Source of the DNA: Syntrophaceae bacterium
Lineage (GTDB): Bacteria; Desulfobacterota; SM23-61
Assembly: GCA_003154025.1 (NCBI GenBank)
Contig: PMCE01000152.1
Location: 3,402 to 10,502, forward strand
Length of the DNA stretch: 7,101 nucleotides
Reading direction: 5' to 3'
A program made the translations under genes and the position numbers. The notes beneath the pieces were generated by a model. The model searched no databases and was not told the origin of the DNA. It saw only the letters and a program-made list of their open reading frames with translations. Shown here piece by piece: positions 461 to 6,928 of this stretch. Position 1 is the first letter of the stretch. Each line of letters starts with the position of its first letter.

Positions 461-1990
461 TTATAATTTGGGTGCGGGGAAGATCACCCCGCCGAAGATG
501 AGGTAGGCCAAAATGAGAGTCCAGATGATGTTAAAGATCTGGGCCCCCAGGAAGGCGACCGCCGGCCTTCCCCCGCCCATCTTGAACAGGTCGGAAAACC
601 GGGTTTCCAATCCGATACAGGTAAAGGCCATGGCGAACCACCAGGTCCGCAGCGCCCCGAGCTGCCCTTTCACGGCGTCCACGGTTTTCGTGTCGAGGAC
701 AAAGGAAAAGAGAACGGAGGCCACGATGAAGCCCAAAACGAATTTGGGGAAACGGAACCAGATTTCGATGGCCCCGGGTTTGTCCCCCGGCGCGGCTTTT
801 TTGAAAGTCCAGACGATGGCCAGGATGAAAGCGGCAAACCCGATCAACACGTTCTGGGACATCTTTACGATGACCCCGATCTTCATGGCCGCTTCGCTCA
901 CCAGAGCTCCGGCCGCCACTACGGAACCGCTCGTATCCAGCGTTCCTCCCAGCCAGGCTCCGCCCACGATATGATCCATGTTGGTGGCCTTGATAATCCA
1001 CGGCATGATGACTAACATGGGGACCGCACAAACCAGGACGATGGAAGTCACATAACTCAGCTTCTTCGGGTCCCCCTTTATGGCCCCCGCGGTGGCAATG
1101 GCCGCGGAAACCCCGCAGATGGAAACGCCGCTGGCCAGGATGGCGGCAAATTCATCATCCACCTTCAGCTTCCGGGCAAACCAGTAGCACGCGTACCAGA
1201 CGACCCCGACGACCAGGACCCCCTGGATGATCCCATAGCCGCCCGCCTGGATGATCTCCCCGAAGAGGATCCCTGCGCCGAGAATGACCAGGCCGATCTT
1301 GATGAAGTATTCGGTCCGCGCGGCGGCCAACAGCCACTTGGGGGTGCCGAACACATTGCTGATGATCAACCCAATCACCAGGCACCACAAGACATACTCG
1401 AGTCCGAAATAGAGGATGGTGTAATTCCCGGATAGGAACTGGGCGATGAAGGCGATGATGAAGATGACCGGGAAACCGGCGGCGAACTTCCCGACCTCCA
1501 ACCCCATGGCCGCGGCCCCGATGGTGACAAGTATCCAGAAGAAGATCAGGATATAAACAGCGGATAGAAAGTTTTTGCCGTCAAAGACCTTCTCCAGGAG
1601 GTTTCCCGCTTCTCCCCGTACGCTCCGGACCAGAGGGGGCACTTTCTTTTTCAGGCCTGCATCGATCGCCCCCTTCATCGCCTCATCCACCTTCTTGAGG
1701 GCGTCCCCTACGGTTTTCCGATCCTTCGATTCCATGGCAACCTTCAGGGCCATGATTTGTTCCTGAAGCGCCGGTTCACCCTTATCCCCCGCCTCCTTGG
1801 CCAGTTTGTCCACCACCGGCATCTGCTCCGTGACGAAGGAAGCAAATTCTCCGTCCGTGGTCCATTTGAAGTTTACATTCGTCAGCTTGAGCCCGGCCAG
1901 CGAGAGAATAATGATCAGGAAACCGATCCAGACCGCAAACCATTCGTCCTTCTTCCAAAGAGAAGACCAATCAATCGCCTTATTCGCCAT
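461..1990 (-). CDS. YeiH/UPF0324-family putative sulfate exporter, long form with an extracytoplasmic insertion
   Basis: This is a 509-residue multi-pass inner-membrane protein of the Cons_hypoth698 family (YeiH; 'putative sulfate exporter', a name derived from the TauZ proposal in taurine degradation and not firmly proven). The ATG at 1990 is chosen because GGGAGG sits about 6 bases upstream and residues 1-15 read as a typical cytoplasmic start; an ATG 21 codons upstream lacks this. Residues 16-34 form a first membrane helix. Residues about 36-140 are charged, helical and free of membrane segments. From about 143 to the end there are roughly ten hydrophobic segments. Family hallmarks include S-I-C-G-V-S-A (290-296), the G-G-T-L-D-T-S-G-S-V-V-A-A-G stretch (348-361) and G-L-E-T-R-F (460-465). 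E. coli YeiH is about 350 residues, so this is a long variant. It has its own promoter and diverges from ileS, so no pathway link to its neighbours is evident; export of sulfate or a related anion is inferred from the family only. Confidence 0.85.
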   Translation of the reverse strand: MANKAIDWSSLWKKDEWFAVWIGFLIIILSLAGLKLTNVNFKWTTDGEFASFVTEQMPVVDKLAKEAGDKGEPALQEQIMALKVAMESKDRKTVGDALKKVDEAMKGAIDAGLKKKVPPLVRSVRGEAGNLLEKVFDGKNFLSAVYILIFFWILVTIGAAAMGLEVGKFAAGFPVIFIIAFIAQFLSGNYTILYFGLEYVLWCLVIGLIISNVFGTPKWLLAAARTEYFIKIGLVILGAGILFGEIIQAGGYGIIQGVLVVGVVWYACYWFARKLKVDDEFAAILASGVSICGVSAAIATAGAIKGDPKKLSYVTSIVLVCAVPMLVIMPWIIKATNMDHIVGGAWLGGTLDTSGSVVAAGALVSEAAMKIGVIVKMSQNVLIGFAAFILAIVWTFKKAAPGDKPGAIEIWFRFPKFVLGFIVASVLFSFVLDTKTVDAVKGQLGALRTWWFAMAFTCIGLETRFSDLFKMGGGRPAVAFLGAQIFNIIWTLILAYLIFGGVIFPAPKL

Positions 1991-2410: not shown

Positions 2411-5218
2411 ATGGACTATAAAGATACCTTGAATTTACCCAAGACTTCCTTCCCGATGAAAGCCAACCTCCCCCAGAGGGAACCGGAAATCCTGAAAAGA
2501 TGGGAAGAAGAAAAGACCTATCAGCAACTGAGGGAAATCGCCAAAGAGCGGCCCAAGTACATCCTTCATGACGGCCCTCCCTATGCCAACGGGCACATTC
2601 ATATCGGGACCGCCTTGAACAAGATACTGAAAGACCTCATCATAAAATCCAGGAACATGGCGGGTTTTAACGGCGAGTACGTTCCCGGATGGGACTGTCA
2701 CGGCCTGCCCATCGAGCACGAGGTCGACAAGAGCCTGGGAAGCAAAAAGGGCTCCTATTCCATCTCCGAAAAAAGAAAGCTCTGCCGGGCCTTCGCCAAC
2801 CGATTCATCGACATCCAGCGCGAGGAGTTCAAGAGGCTGGGAGTCATGGGAGAGTGGGAGAACCCCTATCTCACCATGAGCTATGACTATGAAGCCACCA
2901 TCGCCCGGGAGTACGGCCGGTTCGTCGGCAAAGGATCGGTCTACCGGGGGAAGAAGCCGGTTTACTGGTGCGCCTCCTGCGTCACCGCCCTGGCCGAGGC
3001 CGAAGTCGAGTACGAAGACCATAAATCCCCCTCGATCGCGGTCAAGTTCCCAGCCCTCTCCGATTTTGGCGAGCGTTTGCCGGCCCTGAAGAATAAAAAG
3101 GTCTATGTGCTGATCTGGACCACCACCCCCTGGACCATTCCGGCCAACCTGGCCATCGCCTTTCACCCCGACTATACCTACGTAGCCGCCGAAGTGGACG
3201 GAGAGGTATGGATCCTGGCCGAAGCCCTTCTGAACCAAGTCATGGCCAAGGCCAAGAAAAAACAGGTTCAGGTATTGGAAAAATTCTCCGGCAAGACCCT
3301 GGAAGGGCTGAAGACCCGCCATCCCTTCCTCGACCGGGAATCCGTGCTCATCCTCGCCAACTACATCACCCTGGATACCGGGACCGGATGCGTCCATACG
3401 GCCCCCGGACACGGGCAGGAGGACTACGAGTCCGGGTTGGAATACCATATTCCCATCTACTCCCCCGTGGATGACCATGGGCGGTTTACCCCCGACGTGG
3501 AATTTTTCGCCGGGCAGTACGTCTTCGACGCCAACGAGGCGGTCATCCAGAAGCTCAAGGAAGTGGGGGCCCTGGTCTACTCGGAAGTCTACACCCACCA
3601 GTACCCCAACTGCTGGCGCTGCAAGAACCCCATCATCTTTCGGGCCACGGAGCAGTGGTTCATCTCCATGGAAAAAAACGGACTGCGCCAGAAGGCCCTG
3701 GAGGCCATCGACAAAGTCTCCTGGATTCCCCACTGGGGGCATGACCGGATTTACGGCATGATCCAGAACCGTCCCGACTGGTGCATCTCGCGGCAGAGGG
3801 CATGGGGGGTTCCGATCGTGGCCTTCACCTGCACCTCCTGCGGGGAGATCTTAAACGAAGAACCCGTCGTGGAGCACGTATCCAGGCTGTTCGAAAAGGG
3901 CGGGGCCGACGCCTGGTTTGACCTGTCGGTGAAGGAGCTCCTTCCCCCGGGCACCCGCTGCCCGAAGTGCCAGGGACAAGAGTTCAAGAAGGAAACCGAC
4001 ATTCTGGATGTCTGGTTCGACTCCGGAGTGAGCTACGCCGCGGTCTGCGAGAAGAGGCCCAATTTGAAGTCCCCGGCCGATATGTACCTCGAGGGAAGCG
4101 ACCAGCATCGGGGATGGTTCCACAGTTCCCTCCTGGCCTCCGTGGGAACCCGGGGGCAGGCGCCTTACCACTCGGTCCTCACCCACGGCTTTGTGGTGGA
4201 CGAAAAAGGGAGAAAGATGTCCAAGTCCCTGGGCAATGTCATCCTTCCCGACGAGGTGATCAAGCGGTACGGCGCCGAAATCCTGCGCCTCTGGGTGGCG
4301 GCCGAAGACTACCGGGACGACATCCGTATCTCCGAGGAGATCCTCTCCCGTCTCTCCGACGCGTACCGGAGAATCCGCAACACCTGCCGGTTCCTCCTCG
4401 GCAATCTCTACGATTTCGACCCCCGGAAGGACCGGGTCCCGGATTCTCAGCTCCACGACCTGGACCGCTGGATCCTCCTGCGCCTCCAGAAGCTCACCGC
4501 CCGCCTGAGAGAGGCGTACACCAACTTCGAGTTTCACATGGTCTACCATGGGATCCAAAACTTTTGCACCGTTGATTTGAGCGCCCTCTACCTGGACATC
4601 CTCAAAGACCGACTCTACACCTCTCCGGCTTCTTCCCCCCAGCGCCGGGCGGCCCAGACGACCCTGTACAAAATTCTGGATTCCCTGGTTCGGCTCATGG
4701 CCACCATTCTCTCCTTCACCGCCGAAGAGGTCTGGGATCACATCCCGGGGGCCAAGGAACGGGCGCAGAGTGTACACTTCGCTCTGTTTCCCGAGGCGGA
4801 ACCGCAGTACCTCGACGCCAAACTGGAAGAGCGGTTCGAGCTCCTTCTCAAAGTGCGGACCGAAGTGTCCAGGATCCTGGAAGCGGCCCGGCAGGGTAAG
4901 GTGATTGGAAACTCCCTGGAGGCTTCCGTGACTCTGAACGCCCCGGAGAAGCTCCTCGCTTTCCTCCGGGAGAATGAGCCCCTGCTGAAGGATTTCTTCA
5001 TTGTTTCCGAAGTCATCTTGACCCCCACCGTTCCCCCGGGAGCCCAGCAGAGCAAGGAGATGGAAGGCCTTCATATTCTGGTCTCCCGGTCCGCCGGTCA
5101 AAAATGCCAGCGTTGCTGGATGTACGACTCCAAGGTGGGGCAAAGTGTGGCGCATCCATCGGTCTGTCCCCGGTGTCTTGCCGCCCTGGAGGCCATCCAG
5201 GCAGAAGGGAAGCCGTGA
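2411..5218 (+). CDS. ileS: isoleucyl-tRNA synthetase
   Basis: A complete 935-residue class I aminoacyl-tRNA synthetase that charges tRNA-Ile with isoleucine in the cytoplasm; E. coli IleS is of similar length. Visible landmarks are [11 protein letters not shown] (HIGH motif, about 56-66), W-T-T-T-P-W-T (236-242) and G-H-G-Q-E-D in the CP1 editing domain. The editing aspartate is Asp338. The family motif D-V-W-F-D-S-G is at 533-539 and K-M-S-K-S at 602-606, followed by an anticodon-binding domain. A C-terminal zinc site is formed by Cys899, Cys902, Cys919 and Cys922. Two further CxxC pairs (474/477 and 517/520) just before D-V-W-F-D-S-G look like a zinc-ribbon insertion; E. coli IleS lacks it as far as I recall. 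GAGGA lies 4 bases before the ATG. It is the first gene of the apparent operon; its stop overlaps the lspA start, indicating translational coupling. Confidence 0.97.
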
Positions 5219-5712
5219 GTCTGAAGTACGCCCTGACGGGTCTGATCAGCGGGTCGGTCCTGATTCTGGATCAGATTACCAAACTCCTGGTCGACAGGAC
5301 CATGGCCCTCCACCAATCCATCGAAATCTTCCCCAATTTTGCGCACCTTACCTATCTGCGCAACACGGGGGCGGCCTTCGGGTTTCTAGCCGGTAGCCAT
5401 TCCACCCTGCGGATTATCTTTTTCGGGCTCATATCCGTCGTGGCCATCGGGTGCGTTGCCTACCTCCTCCGGTCTCTGCGGCCCCAGCAGAAGACGCTGC
5501 TCGTCAGCCTGTCCCTGATCCTGGGAGGGGCCGTGGGTAACTTGATCGACCGCCTGCGTCTCGGGGAGGTGATAGACTTTATCGATCTCCACTGGTATCA
5601 TGTTCACTGGCCGGCCTTCAACGTGGCCGATTCAGCGATCTCCATCGGCGTGGTGCTGCTGTTCATCCAGATGGTGAGGAAAGGCTCTCTGACCTTCGGA
5701 GAGAAGGATTGA
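5215..5712 (+). CDS. lspA: lipoprotein signal peptidase (signal peptidase II)
   Basis: A 165-residue inner-membrane aspartyl protease that cleaves the signal peptide from prolipoproteins after Lgt has lipidated the lipobox cysteine. The GTG at 5215 is chosen: it overlaps the ileS stop (GTGA), has AAGGGA about 5 bases upstream, and gives the usual family length (E. coli 164). The open frame extends further upstream, but only inside ileS. Conserved elements are L-D-Q-I-T-K (18-23), L-R-N-T-G-A-A-F-G (48-56), G-N-L-I-D-R (108-113), V-I-D-F (119-122) and F-N-V-A-D-S (135-140). By family comparison Asp121 and Asp139 are the catalytic pair, with Asn109, Arg113 and Asn136 supporting. Four membrane helices are expected, near residues 7-25, 64-86, 94-112 and 138-154. 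It is followed by lgt, the preceding step in the same pathway. Confidence 0.95.
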
Positions 5713-5773: not shown

Positions 5774-6547
5774 ATGTATCCCATTCTAATTAGAGTCAGC
5801 GAATTCACCCTCCACACGTATGGGTTGCTCCTGGCCTTGGCATTCTTCCTGGCGGTAATGCTCGCGGTGCGCGAGGCCAAGCGCGTAGGGGTGGACCCGA
5901 ACGTGATGATGGACCTGTCCTTCTATGGCCTCTTGGCGGCCCTGATCGGATCCCGCGTTTTTTACGTCATCACCACCTGGGAAGAGTTTCGGGACAACCC
6001 GGTGGACATCGTGCGCTTCTGGCGGGGAGGATTGGTCTTTTACGGAGGGTTGATCTTTGGCTTTCTCGTCGCGATCTGGTATGTGCGCAAACATCATTTG
6101 AACTTCACGCAGCTCGCCGATATCGTCGCCCCGGCGATCCCCCTGGGCCAAGCCATCGGGAGGTTGGGCTGTTTTGCCGCCGGCTGATGTTACGGGTCAC
6201 CCGCGGGGGTTCCGTGGGCCGTCATCTTCACTGATCCCGAATCCCTGGCTCCCCGGGGCATTCCTCTCCATCCCACGCAGGTCTACGAATCGGCGGCCGG
6301 CTTTGTGATCTTTCTGATTCTGATGGCCATACGGAAGAAGGAACGCTTCCAGGGAAAGCTATTCTGGTTTTATCTTCTCTTTTATTCGACCGCCCGTTTC
6401 ATCATCGAATTCTACCGGGATGATCCCCGGGGGTGGGTCATTCCGCAGGTCCTCTCCAGCGCCCAGGCTGTCGGAATCCCCGCAGTAATCCTGGCCGTCT
6501 ACATGCTCCTGAGAAAAAGGCCGCAAGTCGCAAGTCGCAAGTCGTGA
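5774..6547 (+). CDS. lgt: prolipoprotein diacylglyceryl transferase, predicted selenoprotein (in-frame TGA read as Sec138)
   Basis: Lgt moves diacylglycerol from phosphatidylglycerol onto the lipobox cysteine of prolipoproteins at the inner membrane. Read through one TGA (6185-6187), the gene encodes 257 residues, normal for the family. Before the TGA: an N-terminus typical of Lgt (H-T-Y-G, 14-17), G-G-L-V-F-Y-G-G (85-92) and G-R-L-G-C-F-A-A-G (129-137), whose Arg130 corresponds to the essential Arg143 of E. coli. After it: C-Y-G (139-141), H-P-T-Q-V-Y-E-S (166-173) and A-R-F-I-I-E-F-Y-R-D-D (207-217), with Arg208 and Glu212 in the place of E. coli Arg239 and Glu243. Many homologues read A-G-C-C-Y-G, so the TGA replaces the first of two cysteines. 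A SECIS-like hairpin follows at once. There is no clear ribosome binding site before the ATG at 5774. The last codons lie in a 7-base tandem repeat. The alternatives are a pseudogene or a read error (Cys codon to TGA); no other lesion is present, which favours selenocysteine. Confidence 0.85.
6190..6217 (+). promoter_or_regulatory. SECIS-like hairpin directing Sec insertion in lgt
   Basis: The stem begins 3 bases after the TGA. Bases 6190-6196 (UUACGGG) pair with 6211-6217 (UCCGUGG), with three G-U pairs in seven. U6197 and C6198 bulge out. ACCC (6199-6202) then pairs with GGGU (6207-6210), closing a GCGG loop (6203-6206). Bacterial SECIS elements are expected to lie inside the coding region just after the UGA, with an apical loop roughly 16-37 bases away that carries a G in its first positions, and often a bulged U in the stem. 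This hairpin meets those rules. Its GC-rich codons are also constrained by the protein, so chance folding is not excluded. Confidence 0.7.
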
Positions 6548-6604
6548 GGGCGTGAAAGATTTTTTTTACCCCTTGCGCCCTCGCGACTTGCGCCTTGCGG
6601 TCTT
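6517..6604. repeat. long inverted repeat built from CAAGTCG units at the lgt 3' end
   Basis: The left arm (6521-6552) and right arm (6576-6600) are complementary over 25 positions with two mismatched positions (T/G, and a G-U-capable T/C) and one extra 7-base unit in the left arm; pairing extends to 6517/6604. CAAGTCG is present three times in tandem (6524-6544). The 23-base loop contains a run of eight T (6560-6567). The element separates two convergent genes and may terminate both transcripts, although the T run is in the loop and not after the stem. The lgt stop codon (6545-6547) lies within the left arm, so the last residues of Lgt are written by the repeat. Confidence 0.75.
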
Positions 6605-6607
6605 CTC

Positions 6608-6928
6608 TCACCCGACTCGTTCAATCCTGAAAAACACCGGCCGGGCCCCGTCGCTGCAGCAGGAAATGGCCATCCCCTCTTTTTTCATCCAGGGGAAATC
6701 CCCCCCGAAACGGAGGGTGGTCACCGTGGGATAGATGTCATGCCAGGCCCAGGTGCAGAAACCGGTCGGCATCGTTCCGGCTTCGTCCACGTGGAACTCC
6801 TGCCCTACTTCCATACGATCGCAGTAGGCGGCCATGGTCTCGGAAACTTCGGGCAGGGGATGCCCGTAAATCTCCTTGGAACTTAGTTTCTTGAGTACCG
6901 TGATCTTCAGCGGATGTCGTTTGGCCAT
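6608..6928 (-). CDS. TIGR04076-family small protein, function unknown
   Basis: A 106-residue soluble protein with no signal peptide or membrane segment. The ATG at 6928 is chosen because AAGGAG lies about 5 bases upstream; the open frame continues 51 codons further, but that part has poor coding character and contains the promoter. The signature G-F-C-T-W-A-W-H-D-I (56-65), a G-G pair (75-76) and C-C-S-D-G-A-R-P-V-F-F (90-100) followed by I-E-R match what I recall of the TIGR04076 family, short proteins of anaerobes with conserved Cys, Trp and Asp. Cys36, Cys58, Cys90 and Cys91 could bind metal or take part in redox chemistry, but no function is established to my knowledge. It is convergent with lgt and transcribed alone, so the neighbourhood gives no hint of its role. 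Confidence 0.8.
   Translation of the reverse strand: MAKRHPLKITVLKKLSSKEIYGHPLPEVSETMAAYCDRMEVGQEFHVDEAGTMPTGFCTWAWHDIYPTVTTLRFGGDFPWMKKEGMAISCCSDGARPVFFRIERVG

Follow-up and report, generated by a model that had tools for sequence, protein, structure and literature searches.

The window, by which we mean the whole 7,101-nucleotide stretch of DNA analysed here, harbours an lgt gene with an internal in-frame TGA codon, preceded on the same strand by lspA and by a long gene that we take to be ileS (Table 1). Lgt attaches the lipid anchor to bacterial lipoproteins, and the product of lspA acts at the next step of lipoprotein maturation. The start of lspA most plausibly lies at a GTG codon (5215), as opposed to the start at 5104 reported by the ORF lister. 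This gene order recurs in the relatives, with lspA preceding lgt in all 10 of the distinct regions compared (from 12 related loci, including two repeats) and ileS preceding lspA in eight of these; the other two (L078 and L080) are short stretches. On the opposite strand, the window also encodes a YeiH-like putative sulfate exporter and a TIGR04076 family protein. The gene for the latter is convergent to lgt and adjoins it in six of these 10 distinct regions, some of the remaining ones being truncated.

Table 1. Annotated features of the lgt locus, in window coordinates.
Feature	Coordinates	Strand	Remarks
YeiH-like putative sulfate exporter	464..1990	-	Long N-terminal extension; 79 bits against a cut-off of 232.6
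ileS, isoleucyl-tRNA synthetase (presumed)	2411..5218	+	Identity presumed from the sequence
lspA, signal peptidase II	5215..5712	+	TIGR00077 126.6 bits against a cut-off of 73.95 (searched as 5218-5709); upstream of lgt
lgt, phosphatidylglycerol:prolipoprotein diacylglyceryl transferase	5774..6547	+	Single gene, 257 codons plus stop; predicted Sec (U138) at the internal TGA
Cys133 codon	6170..6172	+	Aligns with E. coli N146; invariant in 46 aligned sequences
TGA codon 138, predicted selenocysteine codon	6185..6187	+	Aligns with Cys of homologues and with E151 of E. coli Lgt
Cys139 codon	6188..6190	+	Position of the TGA in CU-type Sec-Lgt
Predicted bSECIS core	6200..6218	+	Stem CCCGCGG/CCGTGGG (6200-6206 with 6212-6218); apical loop GGGTT (6207-6211); 19 nt past the TGA
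TIGR04076 family protein	6608..6925	-	Convergent to lgt

Read through the TGA, the lgt frame remains open for 119 further codons and ends at a second TGA (6545-6547). The resulting protein has the Lgt fold and scores 169 bits against TIGR00544, above the family cut-off of 118.9 bits, whereas the separate halves score 106.3 and 52.8 bits, both below it. The mechanical listing of open reading frames breaks the gene into products of 137 and 80 amino acids, the second starting at GTG 6305. A preliminary description of this DNA had proposed that the TGA divides two halves of a single Lgt, with the frame open for 119 codons beyond it and the HPTQ and ARFIIEFYR stretches in place, and had anticipated that standard annotation would split the gene with a start at 6305. 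Each of these points is borne out by the data, ARFIIEFYR being common to Lgt proteins and HPTQ being conserved at the protein level in the relatives. The signature motif of the read-through protein is GRLGCFAAGUCYG, which encompasses C133, U138 and C139. At its 3' end, the gene terminates within a short direct repeat (cgcaagt, 6520-6600); five of the six TGA-carrying relatives identified by the pattern scan outlined below terminate at TAA, the sixth being cut by the end of its contig, and the C-terminal tail in the window may be recent.

Taken on its own, a single window is compatible with a nonsense mutation in a pseudogene or with a sequencing or assembly error, and the splitting of the gene by the ORF lister is in line with both. 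The recurrence of the codon argues against them. A pattern scan of genome contigs, which required the TGA, returned nine matches, comprising six Lgt genes (62.8-83.2% identical) and three chance matches. A class-wide protein search, which did not require it, covered eight genomes of the relatives' class (the six from the pattern scan and two others), and the site was found to be TGA in seven of them, drawn from separately named MAG projects, and TGT in the remaining one (locus L040 in genome G008, 82% identical), with neither TAA nor TAG occurring there in any of the eight. Homologues with TGA or Cys codons at the site, which the preliminary description had suggested looking for, are hence present in other organisms, and the presence of TGA at the same codon in relatives indicates that the one in the window is no isolated error. 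Of 395 genomes sampled from the phylum, 289 presented an Lgt match at 1e-30. Within the listed matches from this sample, the TGA motif occurred in the same seven genomes and in genomes G393 and G140, which constitutes a lower bound.

Protein databases convey the same picture. The residue at the TGA site was Cys in 119 and Trp in one (P0064) of the 120 homologues listed out of 6467 matches (the count was run on 121 rows, with the query included as Cys), confirming that the TGA stands exactly where a Cys had been expected. Furthermore, of the 106 matches to the N-terminal half, 51 terminate precisely at ..GCFxAG, and 49 of these have a length of exactly 137 amino acids; their stop codon is deduced from the protein ends and not from DNA. 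Two of the proteins ending at the site (P0138 and P0139) are encoded in contigs longer than 40 kb, so the stop there is not a contig end.

Two loci in distant genomes of the phylum sample, L078 (G393) and L080 (G140), have their TGA shifted downstream by one codon, so that it falls on the second Cys of the CC pair (GCFFAGC-TGA-YG), and present their own hairpin after it; the preliminary description makes no mention of this second placement. In addition, ten database proteins end after ..GCFxxGC, nine of them identified with a regular expression and one (P0230) from the match listing. We designate the window type as UC, the type with TGA at the second Cys as CU and the type with both Cys as CC. 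The putative Sec is thus seen at position 138 or 139, and never at 133. The finding of TGA at neighbouring codons in different lineages suggests that Sec entered Lgt independently at each position.

Purifying selection acts on the half of lgt that follows the TGA. Between TGA genes, its dN/dS ranges from 0.10 to 0.21 (seven pairs), and the value for the window against the Cys gene L040 is 0.20, with codons compared by position without gaps over no more than 110 codons (65 in comparisons with L007). These low values indicate that the downstream half is most likely translated, and the relatives show none of the decay after the TGA that the preliminary description had listed as evidence against a selenoprotein. 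With the open frame, the identical codon in seven of eight class genomes, the 51 database N-terminal halves ending at this codon and the hairpin detected in all ten TGA genes (see below), a nonsense mutation or an error becomes extremely improbable. The two mechanical reading frames of 137 and 80 amino acids could also denote a truly split gene, in which two half-Lgt proteins are made and then assembled. Nevertheless, the stretch of 39 codons that separates the TGA from GTG 6305 is conserved at the protein level in the relatives (CYG..PWA..HPTQ) and belongs to the half under purifying selection; since read-through is needed to translate it, we give hardly any credence to this arrangement.

A SECIS-like hairpin (for background on SECIS elements, see PMC4607533 and PMC1088965) is predicted downstream of the TGA. 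The rules for bSECIS elements set out in the legend of Fig. 2A of PMC13188914 comprise a loop of 3-9 nt with G in the first two loop positions, a stem of 4-16 bp, a distance of 16-37 nt from the UGA and an energy of -7.5 or lower. A hairpin conforming to these rules follows the TGA in all ten TGA genes (eight UC and two CU; -12.0 kcal/mol in the window, and barely in L080, at -7.6), versus only one of 25 Cys genes, defined as loci whose motif fits the regular expression of the script. Hairpin stability relative to synonymous recodings yielded mean z scores of -2.18 for the eight UC genes, -1.68 for the two CU genes and -0.23 for the 25 CC genes (Mann-Whitney p = 0.00016, with the relatedness of genes ignored). 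Considered alone, the window hairpin is not clearly beyond its synonymous recodings (z -0.75) and does not stand out from dinucleotide shuffles (z -1.29 and +0.73 for two stretches), and some Cys genes show z scores below -2 against synonymous recodings, with other folds.

In an alignment of nine hairpin sequences (the eight UC genes and L040), 98.6% of pair cells pair and six of the eight pairs never vary, while the innermost stem pair appears as GC, AU, CG and GU, and is unpaired once. Covariation is present but thin, and mainly concerns one pair. The covariation score was matched by 14 of 500 shuffles; the count of pairs changed on both sides, matched by 400 of 500, is no higher than in shuffles. 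The single Cys gene with a rule-fitting hairpin is L040, which in the tree described below falls in a starred set with 13 rows, six of them Sec forms, the window among these. This hairpin is likely a relic of a Sec-encoding ancestor, and L040 looks like a recent Sec-to-Cys reversion. Its genome encodes selA, selB and selD, and presented no tRNA-Sec over the cut-off among the 150 of 1049 candidates that were scored.

The genes required for Sec incorporation were located in the relatives. In the seven genomes with UC genes (G001-G007), matches over the cut-off were obtained for tRNA-Sec, selA and selD in all seven and for selB in six; selB has no match over the cut-off in G003 and a partial one in G007, and the selD of G001 is a fragment. 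The same cut-offs returned tRNA-Sec in five, selA in one, selB in two and selD in two of 14 control genomes. Among the genomes with CU genes, G140 contains tRNA-Sec, selA, selB and selD, and G393 contains selA, selB and a selD fragment below the cut-off. In G393, no tRNA-Sec passed the cut-off among the 150 candidates scored out of 216, nor was one located in the vicinity of selA, selB or the fragment of selD. Contig C222 of genome G002 (3118-7487; L016, L030 and L038) carries, besides the main set located elsewhere in the genome, a second Sec cassette made up of three successive genes: one resembling tRNA-Sec, a selB and a selD that contains a TGA.

These data also bear on the decoding of UGA as another amino acid, for instance Trp, through a suppressor tRNA or a genome-wide reassignment. 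P0064, the sole Trp-bearing protein among the 120 listed homologues, nests among the short (UC) forms and could be taken to support such a decoding; its Trp denotes either a TGG codon or a gene caller using a code with TGA as Trp. In the window, however, ileS, lspA and lgt all terminate at TGA, and the selA matches and full-length selB matches of the relatives contain no internal stop, so TGA does not act as a sense codon everywhere, and each of the over-cut-off selD matches in the UC genomes contains one internal TGA. Moreover, the TGA of lgt aligns with Cys and is accompanied by the hairpin and by the Sec machinery of the relatives. Decoding as a residue other than Sec is therefore very unlikely.

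The history of the site was addressed with a tree of 204 rows based on the first 137 residues (137 columns), in which many forks are unresolved. The window was added, eight sequences with long branches (P0241, P0245, P0246, P0247, P0249, P0250, L069 and L080) were omitted, and some duplicate or near-duplicate genes, such as P0181/L078 and P0164/L005, were kept. With the states of database rows read from protein ends, the tree comprises 133 CC, 61 UC and nine CU rows, plus one uncounted Trp row. These states require 27 changes on the tree, against a mean of 60.9 when shuffled, and the starred branches force at least five changes for UC and two for CU. All 61 UC rows fall within one starred set of 140 rows that contains no CU form. 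The CU rows lie outside this set, six in a set of their own and three spread within a starred set of 32 rows that otherwise carry Cys. This pattern suggests that Sec and Cys have been swapped repeatedly and that the two Sec positions arose apart.

Taken together, the TGA/Cys exchange, the hairpin, the selection on the downstream half, the Sec machinery of the relatives and the Lgt fold support the notion advanced in the preliminary description of an Lgt selenoprotein with Sec at a conserved Cys, and we consider it almost certain, on this sequence evidence, that positions 5774-6547 constitute one functional lgt in which UGA codon 138 is read as selenocysteine. We infer from the same features that selenium would actually be inserted in the cell. 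Decoding of UGA 138 would be directed by the stem-loop located 19-20 nt downstream, together with SelA, SelB, SelD and tRNA-Sec, and the product would be a full-length Lgt of the Cys-rich type.

Alignment with E. coli Lgt equates C133 with N146, U138 with E151, C139 with L152 and Y90 with H103, the latter placed by the HGGL motif (chain numbering in the output is one higher). The residues that are essential in E. coli, H103 and N146, are hence absent, with Tyr90 and Cys133 in their place. In E. coli Lgt, E151 is described as forming two hydrogen bonds to the phosphatidylglycerol (PG) glycerol head group of the donor lipid, and the H103Y variant as failing to complement (PMC4728403). Distant Lgts are reported to carry C or C/D at N146 and E151, and H103 is reported to be replaceable by Y, W or F (PMC13251419). 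Since such replacements are reported in other Lgts, Tyr90 and Cys133 mark a subtype. A disulfide arising from N146C has been suggested in Leptospira (PMC13251419, 2026). Positions 133, 138 and 139 are invariantly Cys, with the window Sec written as Cys, in 46 aligned sequences hand-picked from 121, a selection that does not comprise the Trp-bearing P0064.

These observations can be accommodated by a scheme in which U138, positioned at the E151 contact with the donor-lipid head group, would form a reversible redox trio with C139 and C133 through selenenylsulfide and disulfide bonds, with the Sec at 138 or 139 acting as the reactive member. Sec would lower the pKa and resist over-oxidation, so that lipidation could be shut off and then restored; the selenolate may also replace the Glu carboxylate. 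The invariance of the Cys trio in the 46 sequences and the placement of Sec at 138 or 139, but not at 133, point to such a trio. On the other hand, an E151A variant is reported to still support growth of E. coli lacking Lpp, with smaller colonies (PMC13251419), which argues against a redox role. We put forward the switchable trio tentatively, at a little under even chances.

As the main alternative, the Sec residue might act as an anion, with its selenolate taking over the contact of the E151 carboxylate with the PG head group, or might serve as a base. The alignment of U138 with E151 and the hydrogen bonds made by the latter (PMC4728403) are consistent with this role, as are the C or C/D residues at N146 and E151 in distant Lgts (PMC13251419) and the presence of Y90 at the catalytic H103 position, where Tyr fails in E. 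coli and occurs in other Lgts (PMC4728403, PMC13251419). In other lineages, however, the TGA maps to the next residue (E. coli L152) and not to E151, and a redox pair fits this displacement better than one fixed ligand. The anion or base role accordingly retains an appreciable probability, yet one clearly under even chances. Returning to the redox trio, Lgt may have adopted selenocysteine on several occasions, at one or other of two adjacent residues, because selenol/thiol chemistry at the site of the donor lipid controls or drives lipidation in these bacteria, although we would stop short of calling this probable.

Full-text literature searches listed no report of a Sec-containing Lgt. A groundwater survey by Deng et al. 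(2026) reportedly mentions unvalidated selenoprotein candidates. Lgt (PF01790) is missing from the 119 prokaryotic selenoprotein families compiled in Table 1 of PMC13188914 (2026), in agreement with the initial remark that Lgt is not an established selenoprotein family, and the terms 'lipoprotein', 'diacylglycer' and 'Lgt' are absent from the available main text of PMC12013277, PMC9312934 and PMC2398784. Sec-Lgt is thus new in the sense of being absent from the inventory and the literature searched. It would enlarge the prokaryotic selenoproteome by one family, and its recognition would put right the entries currently listed in databases as truncated Lgt proteins (51 among the N-terminal matches). 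That a Sec form exists suggests a chemically active Cys trio in Cys-type Lgts, as opposed to structural filler, and the contrast between Sec and Cys provides a direct handle on the mechanism of Lgt, while two adjacent Sec sites and repeated Sec/Cys switches amount to a natural experiment on the gain and loss of Sec. If the redox reading holds true, lipoprotein making would be redox-gated at its first committed step, and Sec would be at work in a membrane transferase whose known reaction is not that of an oxidoreductase.

The protein encoded in the window shares with Lgt (PF01790, TIGR00544; E. coli 5azb/5azc) its fold, its length, the frame of the signature motif with its Arg (E. coli R143), the ARFIIEFYR stretch and the neighbouring lspA; it differs in carrying Cys for N146, Sec for E151, Cys for L152 and Tyr for H103. 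Also close to it are the Cys-type Lgts of Thermodesulfobacteriota/Deltaproteobacteria MAGs and other distant Lgts with N146C and E151C, which are 49-88% identical among the 120 listed matches and possess the same Cys trio (GCFxAGCCYG), but use TGC or TGT in place of TGA at one position of the CC pair and, in 24 of 25 cases, lack a hairpin fitting the bSECIS rules. With the bacterial selenoprotein families identified through Cys/Sec pairs (PMC13188914), Sec-Lgt has in common the TGA/Cys exchange, a bSECIS element at 16-37 nt and the Sec genes of its relatives. In contrast to these families, Lgt is an integral-membrane lipid transferase, and not an oxidoreductase by its known reaction.
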